A DNA stretch of 64,000 bases from Plantactinospora mayteni (GTDB lineage: Bacteria > Actinomycetota > Actinomycetes > Mycobacteriales > Micromonosporaceae), in contig NZ_BONX01000028.1 in the NCBI RefSeq assembly GCF_016862935.1, positions 1 through 64,000 on the forward strand, in the 5' to 3' direction. The notes beneath the pieces are model-generated. The model worked only from the letters and a program-made list of their open reading frames with translations. It did not search any database and had not been told where the DNA came from. Position numbers and translations under genes: made by a program. Of this stretch, positions 2,032 through 41,457 are shown in pieces. Every line of letters starts with the position of its first letter. Positions within the stretch are counted from its first letter, which is position 1.

Positions 2032-3552
2032 ATGGCCGGTCAGTTCGTCGCCGCGATCGATCAGGGCACCACCTCGTCCCGCTGCATCGTCTTCGACGCC
2101 GAGGGCGGCATCGTGTCGATGGCCCAGCGGGAGCACCGGCAGATCTTTCCCCGACCGGGCTGGGTCGAGCACGACGCCGAGGAGATCTGGGCCGCCGTCG
2201 CGCAGGTGGTGCCGGAGGCGCTGGCCGAGGCGGGAGTCGGCGCCGACCGGCTCGCCGCGATCGGTATCACCAACCAGCGGGAGACCACGGTGGTGTGGGA
2301 CCGGGCCACCGGCCGGCCGGTGCACCACGCCATCGTCTGGCAGGACACCCGTACCGCGCCGCTGCTGCGCCGGCTCGACACCGAATACGGCGAGCAGCGC
2401 TTCCGGGAGCGCACCGGGTTGCCGCTGGCCACCTACTTCTCCGGGCCGAAGCTGCGCTGGCTGCTCGACAACGTCGACGGCCTGCACGACCGGGCTGGCC
2501 GGGGCGAGGTGCTCTTCGGCACCATGGACAGTTGGCTGATCTGGAAGCTGACCGGGCGGCATGTCACCGACGTGACCAACGCCAGCCGGACGCTGCTGAT
2601 GGACCTGCGGACCCTCGACTGGGATCCGGAGATCCTCGACGTGCTGGGCATCCCGGCCGGGATGCTGCCGGAGATCCGCTCGTCGGCGGAGGTCTTCGGC
2701 ACCGCGGACGGCCTGTCCGGGGGTGGGAGTGGGGGCGCCGGGCCGCTGGCCGGGGTGCCGGTGGCCAGCGCGCTCGGCGACCAGCAGGCGGCACTGTTCG
2801 GGCAGACCTGCTTCCGTCCCGGCGAGGCCAAGTGCACGTACGGCACCGGCAGCTTCCTGCTGCTCAACACCGGCGAGAGCCCGGTGACCTCCCGGCACGG
2901 GCTGCTCAGCACGGTCGGTTACCGGATCGGGAACCAGCCGGCGACGTACGCCCTGGAGGGGGCGATCGCGGTCACCGGGTCACTGGTGCAGTGGCTGCGG
3001 GACAACCTCGGGCTGATCGCCAGCGCATCGGAGATCGAGCAACTGGCCCGGACCGTCGAGGACAATGGCGGCTGCTACGTCGTACCGGCCTTCTCCGGGC
3101 TGTTCGCCCCGCACTGGCGCAGCGACGCCCGGGGCGTCATCGCCGGCCTGACCGGTTACGTCACCAAGGGTCACCTGGCCCGGGCCGTGCTGGAGGCGAG
3201 CGCCTGGCAGACCCGCGAGGTGGTCGACGCGATGAACGCCGACTCGGACGTGGCGCTGCGCCGGCTCCGGGTGGACGGCGGGATGACCGCCAACAACCTG
3301 CTGATGCAGTTCCTCGCCGACGTGCTCGACGTACCGGTGGTGCGCCCGAAGGTCAGTGAGACCACCTGCCTCGGCGCCGCGTACGCCGCCGGCCTGGCGG
3401 TCGGCTTCTGGCCGGACCTGGAGACGCTGCGCGCGCAGTGGCGCCAGGACGCCGACTGGGCGCCGGCGATGGACCCGGCGCACCGGGACCGCGAGCTGCG
3501 CAACTGGCACAAGGCGGTGGCCCGCACCCTGGACTGGGTCGAGGACGAGTGA
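2032..3552 (+). CDS. glpK: Glycerol kinase
   Basis: A 506-residue FGGY-family kinase that phosphorylates glycerol to sn-glycerol 3-phosphate in the cytoplasm. The N-terminus carries the phosphate-binding [11 protein letters not shown] motif, followed by [13 protein letters not shown], the WQDTRT substrate motif and the C-terminal [14 protein letters not shown] segment, all diagnostic of GlpK. Length equals the family norm when started at the ATG at 2032; an in-frame GTG at 1996 would add 12 repeat-encoded residues. No glycerol facilitator or glycerol-3-phosphate dehydrogenase is adjacent. The last codons contain a 13-base sequence repeated 24 bases downstream. Confidence 0.95.
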
Positions 3553-14925: not shown

Positions 14926-15016
14926 GTCCCGACTCCTGTCTGGTGTGGGGTACTCGCTTCCTGAACCGGACGGCGACGCGATCCCTGACAGAAGTCGCTT
15001 GTAACCTGGGTCACCA

Positions 15017-15112
15017 ACGAACCATTTCAAACCTCCCCTTGCGCTCCGGCGAGCCGCAAGGTCGGACGGGGTACGTGCCCGCCGCGCGGTTCAGGCTGAA
15101 AAAGGGTTCAAT
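15017..15112. repeat. Structured palindromic element, copy 1 (inverted relative to copy 2)
   Basis: About 96 bp with roughly 80% identity to the reverse complement of 40371-40465. Shared blocks include AACCTCCCCTTGCG, CCGCAAGGTC, GACG and CGCCGCGCGGTTCAGG, then CTGAAAAAGG and TTCAAT. The ends are related as an imperfect terminal inverted repeat, and TTGCG/CGCAA form an internal hairpin. It lies between sigJ and the flavoprotein gene, and its end contributes the TGA stop of sigJ. Confidence 0.75.
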
Positions 15113-21775: not shown

Positions 21776-21852
21776 TGGTAGCGGGGACAGGATTTGAACC
21801 TGCGGCCTCTGGGTTATGAGCCCAGCGAGCTACCGAGCTGCTCCACCCCGCG
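21776..21852 (-). tRNA. tRNA-fMet (CAT), copy 1
   Basis: The 77-nt reverse strand starts CGCGGGGTGGAGCAG, has the anticodon arm CTGGGCTCATAACCCAG and the T-loop GGTTCAAATCC, and ends TACCA with the CCA encoded. The unpaired first base of the acceptor stem (C opposite T) and three G-C pairs in the anticodon stem mark an initiator tRNA. It differs from copy 2 by one base in the variable region. Confidence 0.93.
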
Positions 21853-22026: not shown

Positions 22027-22103
22027 TGGTAGCGGGGACAGGATTTGAACCTGCGACCTCTGGGTTATGAGCCCAGCGAGCTACCGAGCTGCTCCACCCC
22101 GCG
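22027..22103 (-). tRNA. tRNA-fMet (CAT), copy 2
   Basis: A 77-nt initiator tRNA with encoded CCA. It is identical to copy 1 except one variable-loop position (T here, C in copy 1 on the tRNA strand). The two genes are 174 bases apart in the same direction, and each has its own hairpin terminator. Confidence 0.93.
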
Positions 22104-40326: not shown

Positions 40327-40372
40327 ATCTTGGCCCGTGATCGTCGCGGCAACGACGGTCGCGGGCCAAGAT
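40327..40372. terminator. Hairpin between convergent genes
   Basis: ATCTTGGCCCG (40327-40337) pairs perfectly with CGGGCCAAGAT (40362-40372). It overlaps the outer end of the palindromic element by two bases. It could terminate either convergent gene. Confidence 0.5.
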
Positions 40373-40465
40373 TGAACCTTTTTCAACCTGAACCGCGCGG
40401 CGCTCACACACCGCGTCGGACCTTGCGGTCCGACGAACCGCAAGGGGAGGTTGAAAAAGGTTCAT
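40371..40465. repeat. Structured palindromic element, copy 2 (best preserved)
   Basis: A 95-bp element bounded by 17-base perfect terminal inverted repeats, TGAACCTTTTTCAACCT (40373-40389) and its complement (40448-40464). Inside is GTCGGACC-TTGC-GGTCCGAC (40415-40434). The alternative hairpin TTGCGGT/ACCGCAA (40423-40443) overlaps it. The related copy at 15017-15112 lies in the opposite orientation. It has no room for a protein, so it is a non-autonomous or RNA-structural element. Confidence 0.8.
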
Positions 40466-40485
40466 TTGGGCAGGCCCGGCCCGGA

Positions 40486-41457
40486 CTACCGGGCGTCCGC
40501 CAGCCAACTGCGGATCAGGAACAGCGCGATCGACGACGGCGGCGGCAACGCCAACCGCAGCCCGGCACCGACCTCGACCGCCTGGCCGGCAAGCACCGCC
40601 GCGATGTCCCGCCGGCTGAACCAGCCCGCGTGGGCGATCTCCGCCGGGTCCAGCCGGATCGGCCGCTCCGGGTCGGCGAGGGCGAAGAAGCCCAGCATCA
40701 GCGAGCCGGGGAACGGCCAGGACTGGCTGGCGACGTACCCGATGTGGTGCGGGACCAGGCCGACCTCCTCGGTGACCTCCCGGACCACCGCGTCCTCGGC
40801 CGACTCGCCCGGCTCGACGTAGCCGGCGAGGCAGGAGTATCGGCGGACGTCCCGCTCGGACCGCCAGGCCGCGTTGTTGCCGAGCAGGCACCGTCCGCCC
40901 GGGCCGGCGACCCCGTCGTGCACCAGCACGATCATCGCCGGATCGGTACGCGGCCAGAGCTGGTTGCCTGACTCGTCCCGCCGGGACCAGCCCGCGTCTC
41001 CGACCACCGTGGACAGACCGGTCAGCGACGAGTAGAGGTGCCGGGCGTGCCAGTTCGCCAACGCCACGGCGGTGGTGAAGAGGCCGGCGTCCCGGTCGCT
41101 GAGCAGGTGGCCGACGTCGCGCAGGTTCGCCGGCCGGGTGCCGGCCAGCTCCGGGAGCGGCGCGTCGACCGCGAAGACCGGTATCCCGTCCGGCTCGACG
41201 CCGAGGAAGAGCCGGGCGCCCGGCGCGCTGTCCCGGGCCGCGTCCGGGCCGAGCAGGATCAACTCCGGCTTGTCAGCGGCCGAGCCGACCAGGGTCCGGC
41301 CGCCGTTCGCCACGTCCACCACCAGCACCCGGGCCCGCTGCCAGGCGTCGGCCAACCACCGCTCGTCGGTACGCCGGTGCGCGGCGCGGTCGAGCGTGGA
41401 CCGGGCCAGTGGCGGATGACCGGCCGGCAGGTCCAGCGGCGGCGGGCCGGAGGTCAC
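40486..41457 (-). CDS. nudC: NADH pyrophosphatase NudC
   Basis: A 323-residue Nudix hydrolase. The Nudix box is GYVEPGESAEDAVVREVTEEVG and the NudC-specific motif SQSWPFPGSLMLGF follows about 15 residues later. It hydrolyses NAD(H) and may remove NAD caps from RNA. The usual four-cysteine zinc ribbon between the N-terminal and catalytic domains is absent: WHARHLYSSLTG and RDESGNQLWPRTDP occupy the places of the CxxC pairs. GTG 41457 overlaps the stop of the M16 gene (GTGA), so translation is coupled. Confidence 0.92.
   Translation of the reverse strand: MTSGPPPLDLPAGHPPLARSTLDRAAHRRTDERWLADAWQRARVLVVDVANGGRTLVGSAADKPELILLGPDAARDSAPGARLFLGVEPDGIPVFAVDAPLPELAGTRPANLRDVGHLLSDRDAGLFTTAVALANWHARHLYSSLTGLSTVVGDAGWSRRDESGNQLWPRTDPAMIVLVHDGVAGPGGRCLLGNNAAWRSERDVRRYSCLAGYVEPGESAEDAVVREVTEEVGLVPHHIGYVASQSWPFPGSLMLGFFALADPERPIRLDPAEIAHAGWFSRRDIAAVLAGQAVEVGAGLRLALPPPSSIALFLIRSWLADAR

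Follow-up and report, generated by a model that had tools for sequence, protein, structure and literature searches.

Background

Insertion sequences (ISs) of the ISL2 group of the IS5 family produce duplications of 2-3 bp and use an ANT-type target. One report describes ISL2-group elements that are 914-991 bp long and encode a 275-aa transposase; the portion of it drawn on here gives no direct repeats for them (PMC3196728). In archaea, ISs of the IS5 family have also given rise to MITEs, which are non-autonomous DNA transposons. In the excerpts used from the report on these elements, M. acetivorans contains 24 copies of a 140-bp MITE that is related to ISMma12 and has an inverted repeat of 16 bp and a direct repeat of 3 bp; within the archaeal set, all of the new MITEs but one could be paired with previously identified ISs (PMC3852290). 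Like the Plantactinospora element described below, these archaeal MITEs are short and ORF-less, have 16-bp inverted repeats and 3-bp direct repeats, are present in tens of copies and have an IS5 partner, which for the Plantactinospora element is a proposed one; unlike it in sequence, they also reside in a different host.

Two other systems offer looser parallels. TIMEs are Tn3-derived MITEs of 262 bp, with 38-bp inverted repeats and duplications of 5-6 bp, according to the sections of the source considered here (PMC4133298). They resemble the Plantactinospora element in being transposase-less and in the thought that they are mobilised in trans, but differ from it in their length, in their Tn3 family and in the greater length of their inverted repeats and duplications (same sections of PMC4133298). 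The REP and BIME sequences associated with RAYTs are, like a MITE, palindromic, intergenic and present in many copies; REPs are 20-40 bp long, as stated in the part of the source used here (PMC3733652).

The window, that is, the whole 64,000-nucleotide stretch of Plantactinospora mayteni DNA that was analysed, contains two copies of a palindromic element that is best explained as a MITE, probably moved in trans by the transposase of an IS5-family IS with similar terminal inverted repeats (TIRs). The probability of this reading is put at roughly 0.82, on the strength of the TIRs, the high copy number, the ANT duplications, the empty sites and the presence elsewhere of full-length ISs with similar ends. 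The element has the usual properties of a MITE: it is short, it contains no transposase gene, it has TIRs, target duplications and empty sites, and its copies are dispersed. As a MITE it is ordinary, since elements of this kind are known from other organisms, and the family is new as far as the searches show; no paper in the open-licence literature searched was recognised as describing the Plantactinospora element, and the plasmid and phage records searched with it gave no match. The duplications and empty sites of this MITE set are unusually clean.

The two copies in the window

The positions of the two copies and of their parts are collected in Table 1. Two claims made from the letters of the window were borne out: the stretch 40371-40465 does contain 17-base perfect terminal inverted repeats (100% complementary over 17 nt when the target T and A are counted), and a diverged copy in reverse orientation, judged to be about 80% identical and placed near 15017-15112, is present as copy 2, which agrees with copy 1 in 75 of 91 aligned columns. 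The AAC that now flanks copy 2 on one side is probably a mutated AAT, judging from the sequence of the empty site.

Table 1. Parts of the two MITE copies and their flanking duplications (window coordinates)
Feature	Position	Strand	Remark
MITE copy 1, GAACC...GGTTC, 90 bp	40374..40463	+	
Copy 1, left target duplication ATT	40371..40373	.	relatives G001 and G006: single ATT
Copy 1, right target duplication ATT	40464..40466	.	relatives G001 and G006: single ATT
Copy 1, left 17-bp TIR	40373..40389	+	outer T is part of the ANT target
Copy 1, right 17-bp TIR	40448..40464	-	outer A is part of the ANT target
Copy 1, inner palindrome CCTTGCGGTCCG/CGAACCGCAAGG, beside the right end	40421..40445	.	
MITE copy 2, 91 bp	15019..15109	-	82% identical to copy 1
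Copy 2, target duplication, now AAC	15016..15018	.	empty site in G006: single AAT
Copy 2, target duplication AAT	15110..15112	.	

It had also been proposed that both copies lie just 3' of a minus-strand gene. This holds for copy 1, which is located between a hairpin (40327-40372) and the stop codon (40486-40488) of a minus-strand NUDIX/NADH-pyrophosphatase-like (nudC-like) ORF, about 20 bp away. It does not simply hold for copy 2, which interrupts a sigma-factor-like ORF within its final sense codon (window 15108-15112). The restored site reads GAT-TGG-TGA, and since copy 2 brings its own in-frame TGA, the ORF loses its final Trp only; with its stop one codon ahead of the natural one, this copy provides an example of harmless settling. 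The hairpin beside copy 1, with a 20-bp, 90% complementary stem and a 6-nt loop, is retained in all six of the other genus genomes and looks like a common terminator of converging genes.

Copy number and distribution

The host genome holds at least 150 copies, as found with a covariance model made from 69 aligned copies (every one of the 150 candidates scored, at E<=0.01); thus, the two copies reported in the sequence-only reading were an undercount. With the same model, the six other genomes of the genus yield 31, 17, 10, 8, 0 and 0 copies. A search of the host with the 95-mer gives at least 40 long matches at E<1e-28, and when up to 3 mismatches are allowed, the host genome has 133 + 127 matches to the 16-base TIR versus 1 + 2 to a reversed control pattern. 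Among relatives, the 95-bp element was found in the genus only, in 5 of 61 genomes, the host included (E<=1e-5, best 14 candidates or fewer per genome). A short copy with the Plantactinospora interior type (L150) is present outside the genus, in Phytohabitans suffuscus.

The set collected from the host comprises 132 distinct copies, 126 of them full-length and 119 with both ends readable, and 81 of these 119 are exactly 90 bp long. Two subfamilies can be told apart by their middles, while the ends and the sub-terminal sequence are common to both. Two element sequences were each found, identical, at two sites. At one place (G000:C4:288602-288693 and 288713-288796; L015), two MITE copies in opposite orientation lie 19 bp apart.

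According to a crude GC-periodicity gene finder, which scored copy 2 as within a gene, 103 of the 132 host copies are intergenic. In a control taken from the window only, sites outside called genes make up 31 of its 85 CANTG sites and 125 of a sample of 400 from its 966 ANT sites. Among the 103 intergenic copies, 52 lie between tandem genes, 15 are flanked by two 3' ends and 27 by two 5' ends, and 9 are one-sided, with a gene called on one side. A preference for 3' ends is not apparent, and the family does not follow a rule of lying directly 3' of genes. Relative to tandem genes, 33 copies have the same orientation and 19 the opposite one, which was not taken as a signal.

Target duplications and empty sites

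At 109 of the 119 copies, the left and right flanking triplets agree in their middle base, compared with an expectation of 27% (about 32 copies) and a maximum of 52 in 20,000 shuffles. The full 3-mers are identical at 69 copies and not fully identical at the remaining 50; 65 of the 69 identical triplets are ANT (AGT 22, ACT 18, ATT 16, AAT 9). The bases outside the triplets are also favoured, with C before in 74 of 119 cases and G after in 90 of 119, and so the target can be described as CANTG-like.

At the place orthologous to that of copy 1, the element is absent from all six of the other genus genomes. Two of them (G001 and G006) have the empty site GGGCCAAG-ATT-TG, with a single ATT, and the remaining four have different sequence past the shared hairpin. 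The empty site of copy 2 is found in G006 as GGGTCACC-AAT-CGG, with a single AAT. At this place, G001 has 42 bp of other sequence between the flanks, and in G002 two weak matches lie about 100 bp apart; at E<=1e-20, only one flank is matched in G004, and G003 and G005 give no match. Clean empty sites of this sort are what an insertion that duplicates 3 bp leaves behind. The MITE reading accounts for a repeat that is abundant in Plantactinospora, and its insertion sites differ between species, which makes them usable as markers.

Related insertion sequences

The ISs that come closest to the MITE are DDE_Tnp_4 elements of an ISL2-group-like type, represented by L228, from Actinoplanes couchii, and L274. 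They resemble the MITE in their TIRs (14-15 of 16 bases at the closest), in their mostly ANT targets and in an inner end, and differ from it in that they encode a transposase and mostly start with GAGCC, not GAACC. The transposase of L228 (275 aa) matches PF13359 (DDE_Tnp_4), PF13613 and PF01609 above cut-off, and the best NCBIfam match for the IS transposase, NF033581 (IS5), scores 118 bits, under its cut-off of 140. Of 250 genomes from the bacterial family to which the window belongs, 94 contain relatives of the L228 transposase at E<=1e-60. L274, with an open frame of 287 codons, has the closest TIR; it starts GAGCCTTTTTCAACCTGATCTTGCAGGTCA, and its two ends are identical to the MITE at 15 and 14 of 16 bases. 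In most of the other ISs, 2-5 of 16 bases differ from the MITE TIR at each end.

Sixty loci (L227-L286, some places included twice) were scanned for IS ends, and both ends were within 3 mismatches of the consensus at 35 of the 60 (31 distinct), the consensus having been drawn from these same ISs, so that the scan favours such ends. Identical triplets flank the IS at 20 distinct loci; 19 of these ISs are 914-919 bp long and one is 1120 bp (AAA). Among the 19, the triplet is ANT in 16 (ACT 5, AAT 5, AGT 4, ATT 2), GAT in 2 and AGA in 1. Of the 62 ends at the 31 distinct loci, 48 start with GAGCC and just 2 with GAACC; one of these (at L250) is a neighbouring MITE-like end, and the other (at L240) belongs to an IS with a mid-frame shift in its transposase. 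The inner part of the MITE right end and the left end of L274 have CTTGC-GGTC in common, a similarity that 11 of 20,000 shuffles score as highly; four pairings of ends were compared in all, and the remaining three are not significant.

The 90-bp element contains little beyond two putative transposase-binding ends. In the proposed mechanism, an IS5-family DDE transposase, supplied in trans, would bind at the ends, GAACCTTTTTCAACCT, and cut there; the element would then be inserted into a CANTG-like target that is cleaved with a stagger of 3 bp, so that ANT is duplicated. The right end of the MITE may have been derived from an IS left end. The IS that drove the amplification may since have been lost from the host genome, or may have been left unassembled in its draft of 123 contigs.

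The search for an autonomous partner

In the host, no IS of the L228-type subfamily was found at E<=1e-60 among the best 10 of 28 candidates, and no IS with TIRs exactly matching those of the MITE came to light. The PF13359 loci (n=5) and PF01609 loci (n=16) of the host have no pair of MITE-like ends within 1.5 kb, with the exception of L144, where a MITE copy lies beside a transposase match. At this place (G000:C94:2763-2852; L027 and L144), the right end of the MITE is altered and a PF01609 match lies alongside at 3118-3489; another IS may have landed in this copy.

A pattern search for ISs that start with GAACC (354 family genomes, up to 3 mismatches) gave matches in 93 genomes, and among the matches listed the ends were mostly GAGCC. 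The 44 matches in the host are taken to be MITE right ends, which fit the pattern within 3 mismatches. For the sole exact match among those listed (G163:C42, L389), a right end is lacking in the adjoining 1.5 kb and no transposase was identified alongside; other IS-type GAACC left ends among the matches listed are at G329:C1 and G208:C70. Because no resident IS was found and GAACC ends are few among the ISs, we infer the driver, which from sequence similarity would be an IS of the L228/L274-type lineage.

A perfect TIR pair 1284 bp apart on host contig C50 was considered as an autonomous element and rejected, since it represents two separate MITEs around a gene. These two copies (L082, 1784-1873 and 2978-3069) are in opposite orientation in a composite-like arrangement, but differ in their outer triplets (AAC and AGT).

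Alternative explanations

The sequence-only reading had called the element REP- or MITE-like, and the MITE half of that description is upheld by the TIRs, the 3-bp duplications, the number of copies and the empty sites. As a REP-type element, it would have been spread by a RAYT, a Y1 tyrosine-type (HUH) transposase. Such an origin would suit a palindromic sequence of high copy number that is mostly intergenic (103 of 132), but single-strand transposition of the REP/RAYT type is not expected to duplicate its target; the 3-bp duplications, seen together with clean empty sites, largely refute it, and the length of about 90 bp and TIRs that resemble the ends of DDE-type ISs make it most improbable. 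Selection for a structured RNA or terminator, such as an attenuator or an mRNA-stability hairpin dispersed over the genome, is also very unlikely. Two copies of the family do give a strong single-strand RNA fold (-44.9 and -46.8 kcal/mol, values obtained without a shuffle control), and the 3' ends of neighbouring genes are nearer than the 5' ends (medians of 61 bp, n=82, versus 150.5 bp, n=106). However, all gene contexts occur (27 of 103 copies between 5' ends), and no Rfam family reaches its gathering score with either copy. The only Rfam matches in the window at the gathering score are a pair of minus-strand tRNA genes, at 21779-21852 and 22030-22103, with equal scores of 61.7 bits. Base pairing was followed in 67 distinct aligned copies; the alignment was made from 71 full copies less two, of 107 bp and 84 bp. 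Pairing is present in 95.4% of cells for the outer helix and in 84.2% and 75.6% for the two inner ones, the lowest value being that of the inner hairpin, which is imperfect in subfamily B. Pairs changed on both sides number 7 versus 4.9 in shuffles (reached in 84 of 500), and cells changed on both sides number 10 versus 6.4 (reached in 48 of 500), so that base changes which preserve pairing, a check named beforehand, show no excess over shuffles in the hairpins. The two mutually exclusive hairpins that had been proposed are weakly supported: the inner one (40421-40432 with 40434-40445) is indeed 92% complementary, but the changes are uncompensated beyond the level of shuffles. The element is structured in the sense of DNA symmetry, while covariation gives no support to selection for an RNA fold, and what is conserved is best taken to be the DNA ends.

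The transposase that drives the MITE could also come from some family outside the IS5 type. Duplications of 3 bp are known in other IS groups too, the host has no resident IS found with such ends, and most IS5-type ISs depart from the MITE TIR by the 2-5 bases given above. On the other side are the closest IS5-type TIR, at 15 of 16 bases, the ANT target of 16 of 19 IS5-type ISs and the similarity of the MITE right end to the IS left end, and a driver from another family is accordingly considered unlikely.

The same ends in other actinomycetes

An exact scan with TGAACCTTTTTCAACCT gave at least 73 stretches, with many actinomycetes among their sources. From these matches, 36 actinomycete loci were chosen by name, with 5 Plantactinospora loci left out. 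A right end is present at 27 of the 36, delimiting elements of 72-151 bp; the flanking triplets are identical in 16 of these 27 and share the middle base in 20. The interiors vary from group to group, with lengths of 81-90 bp in Actinoplanes, Paractinoplanes, Mangrovihabitans, Nucisporomicrobium and Pseudosporangium and of mostly 150 bp in Spongiactinospora; the element of Phytohabitans suffuscus, at 72 bp, has an interior of the Plantactinospora type. In viral contigs, the exact TIR has 4 matches, and no right end follows any of them over the next 2.5 kb when up to 4 mismatches are allowed.

A tentative reading, somewhat doubtful as it stands, is that these elements form an "ends-only" family across actinomycete genera (Micromonosporaceae and Spongiactinospora), in which one 16-bp TIR encloses unrelated, group-specific interiors that were amplified independently and cross-mobilised by transient IS5-type elements. 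That the host carries at least 150 copies while no matching resident driver was found suggests such cross-mobilisation by transiently acquired ISs. As part of the same tentative reading, the MITEs would share an optimised GAACC end that most ISs do not have. Actinomycete MITEs with shared ends provide a test case for the choice of ends, for amplification without a resident transposase and for harmless settling. In Thermocatellispora, an end of this type adjoins an IS5-type transposase in two frames.
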